From the NCBI GenBank assembly GCA_030607875.1, contig JAUWJD010000002.1, positions 62,001 through 126,000 of the forward strand: 64,000 nucleotides of DNA, in the 5' to 3' direction. How positions within the stretch are numbered: position 1 is the first letter of the stretch; each line of letters opens with the position of its first letter. Source of the DNA: Chloroflexota bacterium (lineage in GTDB: Bacteria > Chloroflexota > Anaerolineae > UBA2200). Positions 7,657 through 15,932 of the stretch are shown one piece after another. The position numbers and the translations under genes are program-made. The notes below the pieces were generated by a model, which worked only from the letters and a program-made list of their open reading frames with translations, did no database searches and was not told where the DNA came from.

Positions 7657-10131
7657 TCAGTTCTCATGTGCGGGACGGATGTCCGCCCGCCGTAACAGGT
7701 TAGCATTGGTCACCACAGTGACCGAAGAGATGGCCATGGCAGCCTCTGCTAACAACGGGTGCATCCAGCCAATGATCGCGAGAGGGAGCATCACCATGTT
7801 GTAGAAGAAAGCCCAGAACAGATTCTGCTTGATCTTGCGGAAGGTCTCCTGGCTGAGCTTCAACGCGCTCACCACGCCGGACAGCTCGCCACGCACCAGC
7901 GTCACGTCGCTGGCCTCGATCGCGATGTCCGTGCCTGTGCCGATAGCAATGCCCACGTTAGCCTGTTTCAGCGCTGGAGCGTCATTGATACCGTCGCCGA
8001 CCATAGCCACCAGACCAAACCGCTCCTGGAGCTTCTGAATCTCCGCCACCTTGCCGTCCGGCAACACTTCGGCCAGCACGTGGTCAATTCCCACCCGCCG
8101 GGCCATTACCTCGGCAGTGCGCCGGTTGTCGCCGGTAATCATCGCTGTCTGCAGACCCATCTCGTGGAGTTCGCCGATGGCTGCCACAGAGTCCTCCTTC
8201 AACGTATCCGCCACGGCCACCAGACCGGCTGCCGATGACCGGCCATCGTCTACCGTCACCACGTACATCACCGTCTTGGCTGCACTCTCCAGCGCCTCCG
8301 CCTGAGAGAGGAGCGGCGTGACATCTACCCCGCGTTCCTGCATCAGTCGCCGCGAACCAACCAGCACCTGCTGGCCGTTCACCGTAGCGACGACTCCCTT
8401 GCCCCGCAGCGCCTGGAACTCCTTAGGCTCAGCCAGAGCCAGGCCCTCGGCTTCTGCCCGTTCGACGATGGCCCGACCCAGAGGATGCTCGCTGCCCCAC
8501 TCAACCGATCCTGCCATCTGCAGCACGTCCTGCTCACCGAAGCCGCTGGCCCCTACTACCACGTCCGTCACTTCTGGTTTGCCCTTGGTGATCGTTCCCG
8601 TCTTATCAAAGACGATCACCTTGACATCCTTGAGCGTCTGGATGGCTTCTCCAGATCGAATCAGGATGCCGTTCGCGGCACCCATGCCACTGCCTACCAT
8701 CAAGGCTGTGGGAGTAGCCAGTCCCAGAGCGCAGGGGCAGGCGATGACCAGCACCGACACCGCCGAGACAACCGCCAGGGTCACAACGCTCAGATCGGGA
8801 TTCACCCAGGGCAAGAAGGTACCTGCCCGGACCAGTGGCTTCATCAGCCCTGGAACCAAGACCCAGGCCAGCACGGCTAGCACAGCGATGCTGATGACCA
8901 CCGGCACAAAGACCGAGGTCACCTTGTCAGCAAAGGCCTGGATCGGCACCTTCGAGCCCTGCGCTTCGTCTACCAGCCGGATCACCTGCGCCAGGAAGGT
9001 ATCCTTGCCAATGCGGGTCGCCTTCACCTTGAGCAGACCTTCCTGATTCACCGTTGCGCCAATGGCCTCATCGCCAGGCCCCTTGTTGACCGGCATGGAC
9101 TCGCCGGTGGCCATCGATTCGTCCACTGCACTTTCGCCTGCGATCACCACGCCATCGGTGGGGATCTTTTCTCCAGGGCGGACGATCATGATGTCATCAA
9201 TCACTACTCGCTCGATGGGCACTTCCACTTCGTCCCCATCCACCACAATCCGCGCTGTCTTGGCGCCGAGTTCCAACAGCTTGCGGATGGCCTGCGAGGC
9301 ACGGCCCTTAGCTGTCTCCTCCACGTAGCGGCCGGTGAGGTGAAAGGCCATGATCATTGCCGACACTCCGGCATAGTTGGCCACAGGGATGAAGAACGAG
9401 GCCGGGCCGCTGAGCAGCGAGACAGCAGTACCCAGTGTGATCAGCGTATCCATGTTGGCATAGCCACGGAGCGCCGCGCGGACACCGCTGCGATACGTGC
9501 GCCGGCCCACCCAGAACAGCACGGACAAGGCCAGCACGATCATCCCCAGGTTGAAAAGCAGCTCGTTGGGCCACATCACGCCAAAGAGCATCTCCGGCAG
9601 CATCCACAGCATCAGAGGCACGGTGAACGCCCAGGCCACGAGCATACGGAAGCGGGCCTCGGCCATCTTGCGTTCTGCTTCGTCCACCTCCTCCTTCTGC
9701 TCAGTTCCGTCGTCTGTCACCAGCACCTCGTAGCCAGCATCGGCCACAACCTTGTGGAAATCCTCCAGGCTGGCCAACCCAGGAACGTATTCCACGGTGG
9801 CCCGCTCCGTGGCCAGGTTAACGCTGGCTTCCAGAACCCCCTCCAGCCCCTTCAGCGCCTCCTCGACATGCCCCGCGCAAACGGCACAGGTCATTCCGCC
9901 AATGGGCAGGATCACCTTCTCTGTCCCTACCTCGTAGCCCGCGTCATGCACGGCAATGACCATGTCGCCGAGCTTGGTTTCCTCGGGAGCGAATGCCACC
10001 CTGGCCCTTTCCGTGGCCAGGTTCACATTGGCCTCGCTCACCCCTTCTATCTCTTTTAGAGCCTCTTCGACATGAGCTACACAGGAAGCGCAGGTCATGC
10101 CCCGAATAGGTAGAATCATCTGCTCCGACAT
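7657..10131 (-). CDS. copA: Copper-translocating P-type ATPase
   Basis: About 824 residues. Two N-terminal heavy-metal domains carry GMTCASC and GMTCAVC. Then come eight membrane helices, the actuator motif TGES, the intramembrane metal site [11 protein letters not shown] (CPC), the phosphorylation site DKTGT, the SEHPL nucleotide-site motif and [10 protein letters not shown]. This is a class IB Cu(+) exporter of the plasma membrane. I start it at ATG 10131 ([14 protein letters not shown]) with GAGGATACT just before; the frame stays open further upstream but lacks a better site. A perfect 8-bp palindrome lies just upstream. The YHS protein and cytochromes nearby fit metal homeostasis. Confidence 0.95.
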
Positions 10132-10148
10132 AGTATCCTCACTTTCTC

Positions 10149-10167
10149 GGCATAGGCTTCCTATGCC
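10149..10167. promoter_or_regulatory. Palindrome upstream of copA
   Basis: GGCATAGG-CTT-CCTATGCC is a perfect 8-bp inverted repeat with a 3-bp centre, ending 18 bp upstream of the copA start codon. It may be an operator for a copper sensor or a leader hairpin. No regulator gene is adjacent. The remaining 230 bp up to the DsrE2 gene show no other gene. Confidence 0.4.
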
Positions 10168-10399
10168 CTCTCCAAAAGCCACGCCAAAAACACTTCCAGC
10201 GCAGAAGTTTCACCTCAGTGTACCACAGCGGTTCGCCCCGATCTAGCGCCAGAAGCTCATCCTGCGATAGGCAAAACAGCCTGCGCGCCTGCCGCGTGCA
10301 TGCGATGTCCCGTTGGCCTAGAGCTCTCCCAGGATATCCGCCAAGGCTACCCAGGGAAATGACAGTCCCGCTTGCTCGTTCGGCCTTACACTCCGTGTC

Positions 10400-10861
10400 C
10401 TATATGAACAGGTTTGCCGTCGAGCCTCGTGCCTCTTGGATAAAAGTGCCCACGCCGCAGTACTCTCCGATCAAGTCCTCGCGCAAGTCTTCTTTGCGGA
10501 TGCCCATGATCTCCATCGTCATGTCACAGGCCATCACCTTCCCACCCAACTCTACAAAATCGGACATCATCCTTTCCAGTGAAGCGACATTGGCCTTCTT
10601 CATGCGCTGGTTGATCATCCACTTGCCCACACCCAGCATGTGCATCTTGGAAAGGGGGCCCTTGTCCAGGCCGGCCGGGGGCATGGCCCACGAAGCGTCC
10701 TTCCTCAGCCGCTGCAAGCCCCAGAAGGTGAAGAAAATCGAAGCCTCCATGCCCATCGCCAGCGCCCCGTTTGCGATGATCAACGCACTGTACAGCTTGT
10801 CCATGTCGCCGCTGTGCAGCACTATGGTCAGGCGCTCCACCTTGCGCTCCTCCGCGTCCAT
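10400..10861 (-). CDS. DsrE/DsrF/DrsH-like protein (DsrE2 family)
   Basis: A 153-residue protein with ERLTIVLHSGDMDKLYSALIIANGALAMGMEASIFFTFWGLQ at the start and a single conserved-type Cys in GGKVMACDMTMEIMGI near residue 110. DsrE2-type proteins are cytoplasmic or membrane-associated sulfur carriers that work with rhodaneses and TusA, binding persulfide on that Cys. The rhodanese gene lies just upstream and two TusA-like genes lie further up the same strand, which fits a sulfur-trafficking set. AGGAGGCAGGA precedes the ATG. Confidence 0.9.
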   Translation of the reverse strand: MDAEERKVERLTIVLHSGDMDKLYSALIIANGALAMGMEASIFFTFWGLQRLRKDASWAMPPAGLDKGPLSKMHMLGVGKWMINQRMKKANVASLERMMSDFVELGGKVMACDMTMEIMGIRKEDLREDLIGEYCGVGTFIQEARGSTANLFI

Positions 10862-10929: not shown

Positions 10930-11325
10930 CTAGTCGCCTTCCACGGGATAGCCGGCATCCTCCCAGGCATCCAGCCCGCCCAAGAGGGCCTTGGCCTTGG
11001 TGAACCCGTGCTCATATAGCGTCAGCGCCGCACGGGCGCTGGTCCCTTCCCTGGGTCAGGTTCAGTAGAAGACGATCTCCCCTCCCCTCGGCAGCTGGTC
11101 GTACCGGTCCTCCACTTCCTCCGGAGGCATGGAAAGAGCGCCCGCGATGTGGCTCTCTTCAAACGCTTCGCGGCTGCGGGCATCGACAACAACCACATCC
11201 TCGCCAGCATCCAACCGAGCCTTCAGCTCCTGGGGGCCGATGCGCGGCACCTCCTGGACCGTACTGGGGACGCGATTCTGGCAGCTCACCAGCAGAAGCA
11301 CGGCCACCAGTATGCTGCTGGTCAT
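10930..11325 (-). CDS. Rhodanese lipoprotein, probable selenoprotein with U-x-U
   Basis: One frame from ATG 11325 (GGAGAGGAGA before it) to TAG 10930 encodes a 131-residue single-domain rhodanese with two in-frame TGA codons. Residues 1-15 are a lipoprotein signal ending LLVSC. The body reads VPRIGPQELKARLDAGEDVVVVDARSREAFEESHIAGAL, then GGEIVFY-U88-T-U90-PREGTSARAAL and a normal C-terminal end (HGFTKAKALLGGLDAWEDAGYP). Related rhodaneses have YCxCP at this site, so both UGAs replace cysteine. A 7-bp perfect stem with a 5-nt loop follows. Coding similarity continues unbroken after the UGAs. The alternative is a double nonsense mutation. It would act outside the membrane on sulfur or selenium species. 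Confidence 0.8.
11023..11041 (-). promoter_or_regulatory. SECIS-like hairpin in the rhodanese mRNA
   Basis: In the mRNA sense CAGCGCC pairs perfectly with GGCGCUG around the loop CGUGC. The loop begins 21 nt after the second UGA and 27 nt after the first, inside the spacing allowed for bacterial SECIS elements, and has G in the first two loop positions. One hairpin would have to serve both UGAs. Confidence 0.65.
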
Positions 11326-11394
11326 TCTCCTCTCCAAGTCAGATGTCACAAACCCTCCTTCCCGTGGGGAAGCAGTTCCCAATGCCATTCTGAC

Positions 11395-12153
11395 CTACTT
11401 GTGCGCCTTTGCCTGGACGCTGGTGATCCTGCCTGGCAGCCTCTCGTCCATGCCTGGTTCACCATAGGAGTGCTGAGCAGCAATGGTCACCTCTCTGAAC
11501 CCTGCCTGCTTGATTGTATCCAGGTATTCCTGCCTCTCCAGTGCCCCGGCAATGCATCCCGCCCAAGCCTCAAAACTGCGCCGCACGTCCTCGGGAAGCT
11601 CTCCTTCGGTGACCAGATCAGAGATCATTATCCTGCCACCTGGTTTCAGAACCCGGTACGCCTCTCTAAAGGTAGCCAGCTTATCGGGTGAGAGATTGAT
11701 GACACAGTTGCTGATAATGACGTCCACGGACTCGTCATCCAGGGGCAGGTTCTCAATCTCGCCCATTCTGAACTCCACGTTGTGGTAGCCACGGCGGCTA
11801 GCAATGCGCTGAGCCTTTTCCACCATTTCGGCGGTCATGTCCACGCCAATCACGCGTCCGCTTTCCCCCACCCTCTGGGCGGCAAGGAATACGTCCACCC
11901 CTGGGCCGGAACCGAGATCCAGCACGACCTCCCCCTCCTTCAACTCGGCCAGGGCGGCTGGATTGCCGCACCCAAGTCCCATCAAAGCCTCGCTTGGAAC
12001 GCTCCCCAGTTCCTGTTCTGAGTACCCGACAGCCCCGGCCTGAGCCTGCAAGTCAGGCCCGCAGGAAGGACAAGAACAGCAGGAGCTACCTTGAGTGGCG
12101 AGTTCGCCATAGCGCTTCTTCACGAATTCCTTGATCTCGTCTTCGCGTTGCAT
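11395..12153 (-). CDS. arsM: Arsenite methyltransferase
   Basis: A 252-residue SAM-dependent methyltransferase: EVVLDLGSGPGVDVFLAAQRVG is motif I and VIGVDMTAEMVEKA follows. The ArsM-type cysteines are present in GLGCGNPAAL, ISNCVINLSPDK and EAWAGCIAGAL, with an extra Cys cluster SSCCSCPSC near the N-terminus. ArsM adds methyl groups to trivalent arsenic in the cytoplasm. GGGAGGTGTACG precedes the ATG. It sits between two probable selenoprotein lipoprotein genes, so the operon may deal with arsenic or selenium/sulfur redox stress. Confidence 0.92.
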   Translation of the reverse strand: MQREDEIKEFVKKRYGELATQGSSCCSCPSCGPDLQAQAGAVGYSEQELGSVPSEALMGLGCGNPAALAELKEGEVVLDLGSGPGVDVFLAAQRVGESGRVIGVDMTAEMVEKAQRIASRRGYHNVEFRMGEIENLPLDDESVDVIISNCVINLSPDKLATFREAYRVLKPGGRIMISDLVTEGELPEDVRRSFEAWAGCIAGALERQEYLDTIKQAGFREVTIAAQHSYGEPGMDERLPGRITSVQAKAHK

Positions 12154-12178
12154 CGTACACCTCCCTTGCGGTCACCAA

Positions 12179-12715
12179 CTACAGGATTTGATCCAGGTAC
12201 CTTGCGATACTGGATTCGCTCAATGGTCCGATGTGCTGGACACGAATCACCCCTTCGCGATCGATGAAGAAGCTCGCGGGGATGCCCCGCACACCATACT
12301 TTCTGGCCACAGCGGCATTTTGATCCAACAGAATCGGAAACGTCAGTTTTCGCTCCTGCGCAAAGGCCTGCAAGGGTCCTTGCTCTTCGCCAATGTCCAC
12401 AGACAAGACGATAAAACCCTGACCCCTGTATTGTTCGTAAGCTTGTTGCAGAGCGGACCGCTCGCTGCGACAGTATGGTCACCAGGTAGCCCAGAAATTG
12501 AGCAGCACCGCTTTGCCGCGTTGTTCACTCAGTGTCCACTCTTCACCACTCAGGTCGCTCAGCGTCAAGTCCGGGGCGTACGCTCCCTGGACTGGCGCGA
12601 CAGGCAAATCAGGCGTCCCTGATGCACTTCGCTCTGCAGTTGTCTGGCACCCAGACACCATCATCAGCAGCACTGCCAGGATAGCCATCGGCAGCCAGCG
12701 CAGAGTTCGAATCAT
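12179..12715 (-). CDS. TlpA-like thioredoxin lipoprotein, probable selenoprotein (UPYC)
   Basis: From ATG 12715 to the stop at 12179 is one 178-residue frame with a single in-frame TGA (12481-12479, residue 79). Residues 1-23 are a lipoprotein signal ending VSGC. The core is YAPDLTLSDLSGEEWTLSEQRGK, then AVLLNFWATW-U79-PYC-RSE, where TlpA/ResA proteins have WxxWCxxC. After the UGA the thioredoxin fold continues normally (GFIVLSVDIGEE, FPILLDQNAAVARKYGVRGIPASFFIDREG with cis-Pro). A hairpin with loop GGUCC lies 19 nt after the UGA. The start overlaps the previous stop (ATGA), indicating translational coupling. Expected role: extracytoplasmic disulfide/selenenyl reductase fed by CcdA. Confidence 0.88.
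12448..12468 (-). promoter_or_regulatory. SECIS-like hairpin in the TlpA-like mRNA
   Basis: GCA pairs with UGC, then a 2-nt bulge (GC), then GAGC pairs with GCUC around the loop GGUCC. The loop starts after 19 nt from the UGA. The E. coli fdhF SECIS has a bulged stem and a GGUCU loop at nearly the same distance. Confidence 0.7.
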
Positions 12716-13347
12716 AGTTTTAGCTCTCCCATCCCCCCACAGCCACCCTCCACAAATGGCAGTTCGCATTCCCCAGCATAGCAGGGATTCTCATGCGATA
12801 GGCCATACCTGGCCGGATTAATACCCCTGCTCTTGAGCTCCTCAATGACATAGTAGTCGCTGTGAATGAAGCGCAGCCACTGCAGTGCAGATTCCCTCAC
12901 CTGCTCCACGCCATAGTTCTTCTCCACGACGAGATACTTCGATAGACCCCACACCGACCGTGCGAGATTGCAGGTGCATCAGCAGCGGTACATCGAGTTA
13001 TCATCACAACAGGGTGCCTTCAGCGGCTGCAGGGCATCGCGTCTGATGCTCTCTTGTTCAGATGTCAACGTGATTGTGTTGTAGTAGTCAATCAGTCGTT
13101 GTGTGTTGTCGAGAGCTAGAGGAATGCCATAGGGTGTCGGATCACCCTCGTTCGGTATGATTTCCGCCGCTATTTCCTCGGGCGTCTTCACGTCGGGCTG
13201 CGGTGGTTGGGTCACACCACAACCTACCACGACGAGAAGGGCAAGTACCAGCAGCGGTATCGCCACGTACAGACGTTTCTTCCACCGCGGCTCTCTCGAA
13301 GTACGCTCTCCGTCTTTGCTTCCTCTCCGTTGTTTCCTGCTTGACAT
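12712..13347 (-). CDS. Cys-rich lipoprotein, probable selenoprotein (C-U-C-x-C)
   Basis: One frame of 211 residues from ATG 13347 (AAAGGAGGAATCTGGT before it) with an in-frame TGA at 12981-12979 (residue 123). A lipoprotein signal ends VVVGC (Cys43). The centre reads APCCDDNSMYRC-U123-CTCNLARSVWGLSKYLVVEKNYGVEQVRESALQWLRFIHSDYYV, then CYAGECELPFVEGGCGGMGEL. The frame is clearly coding on both sides of the UGA, which sits inside a run of cysteines. A 7-bp hairpin with loop GGUCG lies 19 nt after it. I do not know a named family; it looks like a soft-metal or redox protein. Its stop overlaps the start of the TlpA-like gene. Confidence 0.8.
12948..12966 (-). promoter_or_regulatory. SECIS-like hairpin in the Cys-rich lipoprotein mRNA
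   Basis: CUCGCAC pairs with GUGUGGG (seven pairs, two G-U) around the loop GGUCG. The loop starts after 19 nt from the UGA, the same spacing and nearly the same loop as in the TlpA-like gene next to it. Confidence 0.7.
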
Positions 13348-13416: not shown

Positions 13417-14142
13417 TCACAGAAGTGGGCCAAAGTAACGTGATAGATAGGCACTGATCATCGAAAGTGCATCGGTGAAAATGAGAACACCCATCACCAC
13501 CAGCAGTATCCCACTCAAGACCGATACTGCGCGTCCGTGGCGTTTCAGACGCCTGAGCAGGCCGCTGCTCCAGGCCAGTGATGTGCCAGCCAGCAGGAAA
13601 GGCAGCCCCAATCCCAACGAATAGACAAACAATAACAGCGCTCCTCGCCCCACCGTGCCACTCGTGCCGGCCAGCAACAGAATGCCCGACAAGACAGGGC
13701 CCACGCACGGCGTCCAGGCAGCAGCAAAAATAGCTCCCACCAGAAATGACGATGCAATTCCCCACCGCCCGGCCGGATCCGCCCCCAACCGCAGCTCTCG
13801 GTACAGGAAGGGTATCTTCAGCAGGCCAATCGTGTGCAGGCCAAAGACAATCAAGATGATGCCCCCGATCTTCTCGAGAACAGGCAACAGACCGTAGAGC
13901 AGATATCCGACTAGGCCTATCGAAGCACCGAGAACGGTGAAAACGATCGAGAACCCCAGCACAAAGCTCAAGGCGTGCGAGAAAGTAGACCGGCGTTGAG
14001 CAACTGTCGCACCCTGCGGATTGATCGCCCTACCGGTCAGGTGGCTCAGATAGACAGGCACCAGCGGCAGCACACACGGCGAGAGAAACGAGAGCACACC
14101 GGCGCCAAAGGCCAAGAACAGCGAGATATTCAAGGTTTCCAC
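13417..14142 (-). CDS. ccdA: CcdA-type membrane thiol-disulfide transporter
   Basis: About 241 residues with six membrane helices and the two CcdA/DsbD cysteine motifs: SFLSPCVLPLVPVYLSHLTG near the N-terminus and AAAWTPCVGPVLSGILLLA in the middle. CcdA moves reducing equivalents from cytoplasmic thioredoxin to extracytoplasmic thioredoxin-like proteins. The GTG at 14142 has AGGAGG 11 nt upstream; an in-frame GTG at 14154 lies too close to that site. The next genes encode lipoproteins with a UPYC thioredoxin site and other Cys/Sec sites, which are the natural acceptors. Confidence 0.93.
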   Translation of the reverse strand: METLNISLFLAFGAGVLSFLSPCVLPLVPVYLSHLTGRAINPQGATVAQRRSTFSHALSFVLGFSIVFTVLGASIGLVGYLLYGLLPVLEKIGGIILIVFGLHTIGLLKIPFLYRELRLGADPAGRWGIASSFLVGAIFAAAWTPCVGPVLSGILLLAGTSGTVGRGALLLFVYSLGLGLPFLLAGTSLAWSSGLLRRLKRHGRAVSVLSGILLVVMGVLIFTDALSMISAYLSRYFGPLL

Positions 14143-14144
14143 TG

Positions 14145-14303
14145 TCAGCCACACCTCCTGAAGTTACCTTCGAGGAAAGTCATTCCGGGTAGACGTTGTT
14201 CAAACTCTACCAGTAGCTCGGCGTGCTTCCCTTCTGCAACATTCACGTGCTCCGTCGGATCGAGTATGGCATCGTCACAAGAGCAGCCCCTGGCTGGCAA
14301 CAC
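14145..14303 (-). CDS. Small Cys-containing protein, unknown
   Basis: A 52-codon frame from GTG 14303 to TGA 14145, ending 2 nt before the ccdA start codon. It reads GCSCDDAILDPTEHVNVAEG, then KHAELLVEFEQRLPGMTFLEGNFRRCG. The composition is protein-like and the C-S-C-D-D element plus a terminal Cys suggests metal or thiol binding. The ccdA ribosome-binding site is inside its last codons, so translation may be coupled. It could instead be the C-terminal remnant of a longer gene; no family recognised. Confidence 0.45.
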   Translation of the reverse strand: MLPARGCSCDDAILDPTEHVNVAEGKHAELLVEFEQRLPGMTFLEGNFRRCG

Positions 14304-14411: not shown

Positions 14412-14693
14412 TCAACGCCAAATGTAGATCCTCCAGTCAGTATCCGAGCCCTCAACGTTCAGCAACTCGACCTTGAGCGCCTCGACCGCCATGGGGATTT
14501 CCTTTTTCGAGGCGGGGTGCGTGCCCACCACCTCGACGATGTCGCCCGGTGAGGCTCGGCGCAACGCCTTTCGCACCTCCACCAGCGGAACAGGACAGGT
14601 CTCGCCCCGGCAGTCCACCATGATGTGCGCCCTAGTCACAGGGCATGTCGCTTCCCGGGTGTCTACTGTGACCTCCCCCCCACGCTCCTCCAC
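14412..14693 (-). CDS. TusA-family sulfur carrier, copy 1
   Basis: About 93 residues. The core CRGETCPVPLVEVRKALRRASPGDIVEVVGTHPASKKEIPMAVEA is the TusA/SirA fold with the CPxP persulfide-carrying cysteine. An N-terminal element DTREATCPVTRAHIMVD resembles a shortened copy of the same motif. The apparent start is GTG 14693, inside the end of the FTR1 gene. A second copy (15663-15932) is about 85 percent identical and lies in the same orientation on the other side of FTR1. It is expected to pass sulfur in the cytoplasm, with DsrE2 and the cysteine desulfurase as likely partners. Confidence 0.88.
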   Translation of the reverse strand: MEERGGEVTVDTREATCPVTRAHIMVDCRGETCPVPLVEVRKALRRASPGDIVEVVGTHPASKKEIPMAVEALKVELLNVEGSDTDWRIYIWR

Positions 14694-15490
14694 ACAACCA
14701 CTACAGCTAACAGGTACGCAGCATGGCTAAGCACTTCCAGCAGCGACGGATTCCCGTCAAAGCCAAACAAGCTCTTGAGCATGCTCCCAATGTAACCCTT
14801 CTCGTGTAGCAGCGCATAGCGGCCGTCTGCACTCACCGGCGGGTTGATATCCCAAATGTGTTCGATCGCCGTCGGAAGGACACGTGCCTCCTGCAATTCG
14901 TGAATTCCCTGCGCCACTAACCCAGCAGCGAAGAGAATCAGCAGCACGCTGGTAACATTGAAGAAGGTCCTGATGTTCACCTTCCGCGAACTGACGAACA
15001 TCACATAACCAATCAGGACCGCTGCTGCGATCCCGATGAGTGCGCCCAGCAAGCTATTTTCATTGGCAGTGACACTTGCCGCGCTGAGGAAAATCACCGT
15101 CTCTATCCCCTCCCTTAGCACAGCGATAAAGACCAGTGAGAACAGGCCGAATCGGTGCGCCTCTGCAACCTCCGCAGCCACTCTACTCTCCAGTTCCCTG
15201 GAGATGTTCTGTTGCTTCAGCATCCACAGGATCATTGTGGTAAGAAGCAATGCACCGGCCAGCATGGTAACCCCTTCGAACACCTCCTCGGCTCTGCCGG
15301 TGAAACCACCTGTCACTTGGGTGAACAGCACGGCACCCACAATGCTGGCCAAGATGCCGGCAAGAATGCCTGCGTAGAGCACGCCTTTGTACTTCATCTG
15401 CCTGGTTCTGGAGAGGTAGCTCAACACGATTCCAACCACCAGGGCTGCTTCTAGTGTCTCCCTAAATGTGATAATGAGACTTGGTATCAT
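14663..15490 (-). CDS. FTR1-family iron permease
   Basis: A 275-residue protein with seven membrane helices. Two REXXE-type motifs needed for iron transport are present: RETLEAALVVG near the N-terminus and REGIETVIFLSA near the middle. FTR1/EfeU proteins import iron, usually with a ferroxidase or cytochrome partner outside. Neither EfeO nor EfeB is adjacent, but cytochrome lipoproteins and Fe-S assembly genes are nearby. GGGGTAAGA precedes the ATG. The C-terminal codons overlap the TusA copy 1 start, and the gene is bracketed by two TusA copies. Confidence 0.92.
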   Translation of the reverse strand: MIPSLIITFRETLEAALVVGIVLSYLSRTRQMKYKGVLYAGILAGILASIVGAVLFTQVTGGFTGRAEEVFEGVTMLAGALLLTTMILWMLKQQNISRELESRVAAEVAEAHRFGLFSLVFIAVLREGIETVIFLSAASVTANENSLLGALIGIAAAVLIGYVMFVSSRKVNIRTFFNVTSVLLILFAAGLVAQGIHELQEARVLPTAIEHIWDINPPVSADGRYALLHEKGYIGSMLKSLFGFDGNPSLLEVLSHAAYLLAVVVVWRSVGGRSQ

Positions 15491-15662
15491 TCTTACCCCT
15501 GATTTGCACCTAGGTTCCAGTCATCTTCGAACCTTTCCAGCCCCTCCCTAGTATCGGTCCACCGGGAAGTCCTTCCACGCCGCAGTAGCCAAGCTGGCAC
15601 AGCGAACACCCATGCCAGCAACGCGCCGTGGCGTGGACGAAACGCTAGTCATATCGTTGTCC

Positions 15663-15932
15663 TCAGCGCCGAATGAGTATCTTCCAGTCTGTGTCCGATC
15701 CCTCGATGCCCAGCAGCTCGGCTTTGAGCGCCTCGACCGCCATCGGGATCTCCTTTTTCGAGACGGGATGCGTGCCCACTACCTCAATTACATCACCAGG
15801 AGACGCCTTACGCAGTGCCTTGCGCACCTCCACCAACGGCACCGGGCAGGTCTCGCCCCGGCAGTCCACCATGATGTGCGCCCCAGTCACAGGGCATGTC
15901 GCTTCCCGGGTGTCTACTTTGATCTCCCCCAT
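15663..15932 (-). CDS. TusA-family sulfur carrier, copy 2
   Basis: 89 residues, MGEIKVDTREATCPVTGAHIM, then CRGETCPVPLVEVRKALRKASPGD and a conserved C-terminal half. CPVP carries the active cysteine. It is the near-twin of 14412-14693 and starts about 10 nt after the stop of the IscU-DUF59 gene, so it is probably co-transcribed with Fe-S assembly genes. About 170 bp between it and FTR1 show no gene. Confidence 0.9.
   Translation of the reverse strand: MGEIKVDTREATCPVTGAHIMVDCRGETCPVPLVEVRKALRKASPGDVIEVVGTHPVSKKEIPMAVEALKAELLGIEGSDTDWKILIRR

Follow-up and report, generated by a model that had tools for sequence, protein, structure and literature searches.

What do four in-frame UGA codons signify in three neighbouring genes, and why should these genes lie beside a membrane electron carrier and an arsenite methyltransferase? 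The question is posed by a stretch of 64,000 nucleotides from a Chloroflexota bacterium (assembly GCA_030607875.1, contig JAUWJD010000002.1, positions 62,001 to 126,000), referred to here as the window, which belongs to a 3.37 Mb draft genome of 69 contigs that is 84% complete. On the minus strand of the window are genes for P3, a Cys-rich lipoprotein (12712..13347), for TlpA(U), a TlpA/ResA-like lipoprotein (12179..12715), and for Rho, a rhodanese-like lipoprotein (10930..11325). An earlier note on this DNA had recorded four in-frame TGA codons in these genes and interpreted the products as selenoproteins; the coordinates and frames are correct and the interpretation is supported by the computational analysis presented here. 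The explanation that best accounts for the locus as a whole, and which we consider reasonably probable, is that the three proteins are selenoproteins, that they operate in a relay fed by CcdA, and that this relay belongs to a metal(loid)-methylation island.

Probable selenocysteine decoding and the UGA codons of TlpA(U) and Rho

How, then, would these codons be read? The means for selenocysteine (Sec) incorporation are encoded in the genome: selA, selB, selD and a tRNA-Sec, by which the earlier note had proposed to check its interpretation, are all present, with SelA scoring 573 bits, SelB 354 bits and SelD 372 bits, and with the tRNA carrying a UCA anticodon. The selD gene itself contains an in-frame UGA within AGUAAK, which we take to be its own Sec site. 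The reading frames of P3, TlpA(U) and Rho are otherwise open. Of the 1864 TGAs on the two strands of the window, 533 have an open frame to either side, and when these are ranked by the codon bias of both flanks all four UGAs come within the first nine. Sec decoding is very likely, and for Rho and TlpA(U) the presence of Sec is close to certain.

In TlpA(U) the UGA (12481-12479, Sec79) falls in the sequence WATWUPYC, at the attacking (first) Cys of WCPYC, and the Pfam match spans the codon. The protein is closest to ResA in both NCBIfam and the PDB; it is classed as TlpA/ResA-like only, since it scores 126 bits against the cut-off of 170 of the ResA model NF002854. Matches at 1e-35 are found in 110 of 396 genomes of the class, five of them with an in-frame UGA, and across the 30 loci fetched the site holds U in five and C in 25, and nothing else. 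The five Sec-TlpA proteins, that of the window included, span three families (f1, f9 and f14) and group together with a support of 94/88 when U is entered as C and of 95/89 when the site is masked; the grouping also appears with UGA read as Trp, support being slightly lower when it is read as Cys.

Rho carries two UGAs (11064-11062 and 11058-11056, Sec88 and Sec90) in the motif FYUTUP, and its match to PF00581 (60.5 against a gathering score of 22.2) spans both. Its score with NF041203 (rhodanese_LYCAU) is 100.2 bits, below the curated cut-off of 115. When the class was searched with this model, matches were obtained in 338 of 396 genomes, many of the best containing a UGA; none exceeds the cut-off, yet 26 of the 30 best loci display a CxU or UxU loop. 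The second loop position is Sec in these 26, that of the window included, as in the YCxU loop of NF041203, and Cys in two others (L039 and L064). At the first loop position the 26 have Cys in 22 cases and Sec in four, again with the window's among them, and three further loci, chosen for their two UGAs, are also UxU, so that this form is seen in seven genomes in total, including this one. The first Sec of Rho aligns with the loop Cys of the solved rhodanese 3tp9. In the tree the window's Rho groups with those of genomes G250, G007 and G002 (91/92, not a starred branch). A single clade of UxU rhodaneses was considered and is not supported, the form requiring three changes in the tree, and the outcome is the same whether UGA is read as Trp or as Cys.

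The earlier claim that every TGA stands where a redox Cys is expected thus holds for TlpA at 30 of 30 sites (U or C), for Rho at 28 of 30 (26 U and two Cys) and for P3 in two homologues with Cys; it does not extend to a distant P3 relative with Asn at the site, nor to L057 and L058 (genomes G024 and G087), where the rhodanese loop is longer and has its UGA at a later position that follows a Cys (YGDRCUP and YCSDCUP). That similarity continues beyond the UGA is borne out for all three proteins, by Pfam matches in TlpA(U) and Rho and by two Acidobacteriota proteins in the case of P3.

Each UGA would be recoded through a hairpin that starts about 7-20 nt downstream. Such putative SECIS hairpins, which the earlier note had placed after each gene's UGA, do exist in all three, on the minus strand at 12946..12968 in P3 (a 9-bp stem with loop GGUCG), at 12444..12472 in TlpA(U), where the core is common to all five Sec-TlpA genes, and at 11023..11041 in Rho, where one hairpin serves both UGAs. 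The Rho hairpin covaries: five base pairs are kept in all 26 loci, and two of these join third codon positions. The silent pair 18-30 is CG in 20 loci, UA in four, AU in one and UG in one, being paired in 26 of 26, and the other third-position pair is CG in 25 and UA in one. None of 500 shuffles reaches five pairs changed on both sides, a comparison to be read with the caveat that related sequences can beat such shuffles, and slid structures perform far worse. Such coordinated silent changes, as they appear in the alignment, would be hard to explain otherwise.

Some results count against so direct an account of the decoding. For one of the five covariation measures, further pair types, 25 of 500 shuffles attain the observed value, and in roughly half of the sequences the Rho helix lacks its two outer pairs. 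The folding energies do not stand out (z from -0.4 to -1.6), and folding alone is weak evidence because a loose SECIS-like criterion is satisfied after 804 of 4000 random coding codons. A tight criterion (stem of at least 5, loop 18-22 nt after the codon), set post hoc with the data already seen, selects all three hairpins and 199 of 6000 random codons. SelB is above cut-off in all five Sec-TlpA genomes; it is common across the class with or without a UGA-bearing Rho, and in a control of 80 genomes it does not discriminate, being above cut-off in 49 of the 58 carriers and in 17 of the 22 remaining genomes (carriers being counted for Rho matches down to about 1e-16, to the exclusion of weaker matches and of G056). 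A full SelB match is lacking in nine carriers, G250 included, a genome that has a UxU rhodanese and no SelB match at 1e-40. The G250 genome (loci L046 and L065) is a single contig of about 5.4 Mb that is 85% complete.

The hgcAB association and the exchanged slot

What might such a set of selenoproteins serve? A first indication comes from the neighbourhoods of the other Sec-TlpA genes, a feature that is not visible from the single window available to the earlier note. All four of the other Sec-TlpA genomes have hgcA and hgcB near tlpA(U) and on its strand, with hgcA at a distance of 0.6-0.7 kb in G106, G082 and G007 and of about 4 kb in G048 (hgcB at about 5 kb). By comparison, hgcA is absent from 21 of 21 widened Cys-TlpA neighbourhoods, 11 of which are at least 12 kb in length, and from within 1.5 kb of any of the 25 Cys-TlpA loci. 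Seven HgcA proteins score 390-456 bits, where the cut-off is 275; for HgcB a single protein was scored, at 97 against 99.

A second indication is positional. Read along the minus strand, the genes of the window run nifS, ferritin, nifU, tusA, FTR1, a second tusA, ccdA, P3, tlpA, arsM, rho, dsrE2 and copA (the names nifS, ferritin, nifU and copA coming from our own reading of the sequences, without a family search). In four of five same-family genomes sampled (G082, G106, G145 and G126) the frame from nifS-ferritin-nifU-tusA to copA encloses hgcAB, and in G082 and G106 it also holds tlpA(U). In the window genome the same frame contains FTR1, the second tusA and ccdA-P3-tlpA(U)-arsM-rho(UU), and there is no HgcA elsewhere in this 84% complete genome, where just a CdhD-type match was found (contig C63).

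The block is bounded on its left by the TusA, FTR1-type iron permease and TusA genes (14412..15932, identified by Pfam search) and on its right by a DsrE2-like gene (10400..10861, Pfam search and synteny), beyond which lies a CopA-like P-type ATPase (7657..10182, an open reading frame syntenic in relatives). Next to P3 is the CcdA/DsbD-TM membrane electron carrier (13417..14154; PF02683, 2.7e-22), which agrees with the adjacency to CcdA claimed earlier; TlpA adjoins CcdA also in G110 and G058. ArsM, the arsenite methyltransferase (11395..12153), contains no in-frame UGA and scores 342 bits with NF008823, whose cut-off is 263. All these genes are on the minus strand. From ccdA through dsrE2 the intergenic gaps do not exceed 70 nt and P3 and tlpA overlap as ATGA, because of which ccdA-P3-tlpA-arsM-rho are likely to be cotranscribed as a single transcript.

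How these components could work together can be outlined as follows. P3, TlpA(U) and Rho(UU) would be genuine selenoproteins, made with the genome's own SelB and tRNA-Sec, and most likely exported and membrane-anchored, as suggested by the lipoboxes VVGC, VSGC and LVSC seen by eye in the three candidates. Proteins of the CcdA type take electrons from thioredoxin in the cytosol and hand them to TlpA-like partners outside the cytoplasm, and Sec at the attacking position is both more acidic and more nucleophilic than Cys. CcdA may bring reductant through the membrane to the Sec-Cys pair in TlpA(U), and TlpA(U) would in turn reduce P3, at CUCTC, and the UxU rhodanese; such a CcdA-fed relay, with the electron path and substrates proposed here, is in our judgement somewhat favoured. 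P3 and Rho would offer selenol and thiol groups to which soft metal(loid)s or sulfane sulfur could bind. The relay may serve an island of metal(loid) methylation where ArsM stands in the HgcAB slot; next to ArsM or HgcAB, it could strip the metal(loid) off or present it, or else maintain the outer face in a reduced state. This role in metal(loid) chemistry, which is suggested by the neighbourhood, is a possibility that we hold at a little under an even chance. A wider proposal is more doubtful, namely that a portable extracytoplasmic selenol relay, comprising CcdA, the Sec-TlpA lineage and Sec clients such as P3, CYCXC proteins or the UxU rhodanese, partners metal(loid) methylation, with HgcAB and ArsM as exchangeable modules. 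The link of a specific Sec-thioredoxin lineage to hgcAB matters since an outward-facing selenol reductase is a candidate for supplying or removing thiol-bound mercury, processes which to our knowledge are poorly understood around HgcAB.

Could the relay be real and yet have nothing to do with metal(loid)s? The selenoproteins may instead handle sulfur traffic or general extracytoplasmic disulfide reduction of the ResA/CcdA type, perhaps in cytochrome maturation, with arsM and hgcAB as chance neighbours, an explanation we rate as distinctly less probable although it remains a serious competitor. The affinity of TlpA(U) to ResA speaks for it, as do the TusA, DsrE2 and NifS/NifU-like genes that flank the site and the absence of hgcAB from 26 of the 28 Rho stretches taken from other genomes. 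Chance neighbourhood is hard to reconcile with hgcAB beside four of four other Sec-TlpA genes as opposed to none of 21 Cys-TlpA genes, and with the spread of the Sec-TlpA proteins over three families.

The proposed link to metal(loid) methylation has further observations to contend with. Ten of the 21 Cys-TlpA control stretches are shorter than 12 kb; a second TlpA-like gene of G048, free of UGA, is also situated at roughly 7 kb from hgcA; G145 and G126 possess hgcAB without TlpA(U), and G053 is without HgcA. Only two of the 28 Rho stretches do have hgcAB nearby, and all the genes of the set were seen together in just one genome. In favour of the link, those two stretches are from G007 and G002, both of which belong to the group of the window's Rho.

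Several minor features were noted around these loci. In G048 a DUF1573/CcmH-like gene comes before tlpA(U), and a gene for a CYCXC protein with Sec (EUSIC; L129, 8303-8875; 75 of 90 bits) comes directly after it. The minus-strand hgcA of L067 (G007:C494) has, upstream of about 7060, an apparent N-terminal extension reading PQSCUTPNR, whose in-frame UGA may mark a CU-type HgcA selenoprotein or else be a stop before the true start. The Cys-rich tails of HgcB in L127 (7020-7352) and L128 (11718-12086) end in RCC-UGA, either an ordinary stop or a C-terminal Sec. Between tusA and tlpA(U) of G082 lies an Acr3/SBF arsenite efflux fragment (L128, 8486-9091), apparently decaying; it was considered as a hidden selenoprotein and rejected, as read-through soon meets more UGA and other stops. 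In the window the two TusA copies (14412-14693 and 15663-15932) that flank FTR1 are 85% identical, a duplication that lies on the border of the exchanged block. The third-position GC content is lowest in P3 (0.61) and tlpA (0.62) among 13 genes measured, a mild hint of import.

P3 and the meaning of its UGA codon

Of the three proteins, P3 is the one whose UGA (12981-12979, Sec123) calls for the closest scrutiny. The protein, whose features run PCC...CUCTC...GLSKYL...GGCGGM, reads MYRCUCTCNLARS around the codon. Two Acidobacteriota MAG proteins, L133 and L134 (OFTM223 and OFTM268), are 47% and 45% identical to it and have Cys exactly at the UGA, with T-C-C-C-E-C where P3 has R-C-U-C-T-C; the similarity runs past the UGA to the C terminus and includes the shared GLSKYL and GCGGM. 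They came from a second, wider contig scan with a trimmed alignment, a first scan with other patterns having yielded no relative. These two homologues would be, along with the hairpin, the main evidence for Sec in P3, which we regard as highly probable. P3 represents an undescribed family, probably of selenoproteins, seen by no Pfam or NCBIfam model (a single NCBIfam row, at E 0.043, is below cut-off).

It might be argued that the P3 UGA is an ordinary stop, ending a protein of 122 residues and leaving TlpA(U) and Rho as the only selenoproteins. The gene does end in a UGA, which we regard as a true stop and which shares letters with the start codon that follows (ATGA). Searches of 298 genomes of the class and 400 of the phylum, and two wider contig scans, found no second UGA-bearing P3, and the single distant relative worth naming from the class and phylum searches, L022 (26% identity), has Asn at the site rather than Cys. 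Nor is P3 illuminated by structure, its AlphaFold model being poor (pLDDT 63, pTM 0.52) and without a fold match (best Foldseek E 6.2). An ordinary stop is nonetheless improbable in view of the similarity to the true end and the Cys in the two homologues, the codon bias that holds on both sides of the UGA, and the next start at 12954, which would leave a fragment of 80 residues with no signal visible by eye.

More radical dismissals fare worse. That the UGAs arose through misassembly, or through mutation in genes undergoing decay, would be conceivable in a draft of 84% completeness and 69 contigs, but is hardly credible when the same-site UGA recurs in four other TlpA genes and 25 other Rho loci, which contradicts the idea for both proteins, when the Rho hairpin covaries and when the three frames are otherwise open. 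An alternative code with UGA as a normal sense codon would account for the in-frame UGAs and is the least plausible of all, given that UGA ends P3 itself at the ATGA overlap, that UGAs outside the three genes appear to act as stops, that Sec machinery is present and that the window holds no other convincing read-through gene, the other rows among the best 25 of the 533 by codon bias, considered as further hidden selenoproteins, looking like the end of one gene running into the next or like antisense frames.

Relation to known systems

How much of this is new? The earlier note knew of no description of a compact extracytoplasmic operon of this kind with ArsM. Parts of the set are known: the portions available of a 2026 review (PMC13188914) list a rhodanese CxU ('Rhodanese-like form 3, CxU'), a TlpA-like UxxC, HgcA/HgcB and CYCXC selenoproteins. 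The UxU rhodanese, the P3 family and the gene set as a whole were not found in the literature that could be searched, of which Haft and Gwadz 2023 and Haft and Tolstoy 2025 may hold parts, and 'UxU' does not occur in the main text of PMC13188914 as far as it was available. What is added here is the probable selenoprotein family of P3 and a double-Sec UxU form of the rhodanese that the review does not name.

Rho shares with the NF041203 rhodaneses the fold and the Sec at the second loop position, in the context Y-x-[TA]-U, and differs from them in having Sec at the first loop position too, the rarer form, and in its lower score. TlpA(U) resembles TlpA/ResA and the UxxC forms (cd02966, PF00578 rows, and PMC13188914 in the portions available) in its thioredoxin fold and in the Sec at the attacking Cys of WCxxC; it differs in belonging to the WUP[YH]C group, four of whose five members are beside hgcAB, and in its ResA score. 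CYCXC proteins (NF041379/PF13798, OS_HP4) are likewise small, Cys-rich and anchored, one stands next to TlpA(U) in G048, and by eye their UxxC resembles the UCTC of P3. No profile-profile homology was detected outside the signal anchor: hhalign gave P3 a 2.3% probability of being a PCYCGC (PF13798/OS_HP4) protein, with the signal anchor alone aligned, and this assignment was rejected.

The SAO/Tso operons of Haft and Gwadz 2023 and Haft and Tolstoy 2025, as the available portions of PMC13188914 describe them, also bring several selenoproteins together, with HgcA/HgcB and thioredoxin-like members and with TsoB as a rhodanese/DsbD fusion. The window proteins differ from these: TlpA(U) has no SaoT row, the match to TsoB is weak (21-58 of 805 bits), and no Sao model is among the matches listed for eight window proteins (for ArsM, the best 25 of 63). 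In the parts seen of PMC7438021, hgcAB is reported beside arsM and acr3, such that mercury and arsenic methylation genes share neighbourhoods as they appear to do here; those parts include no selenoproteins, and in the window it is arsM that stands in the hgcAB slot. In L086 (G254:C123) the gene for a UxU rhodanese lies directly 3' of that for an FTR1-type permease.

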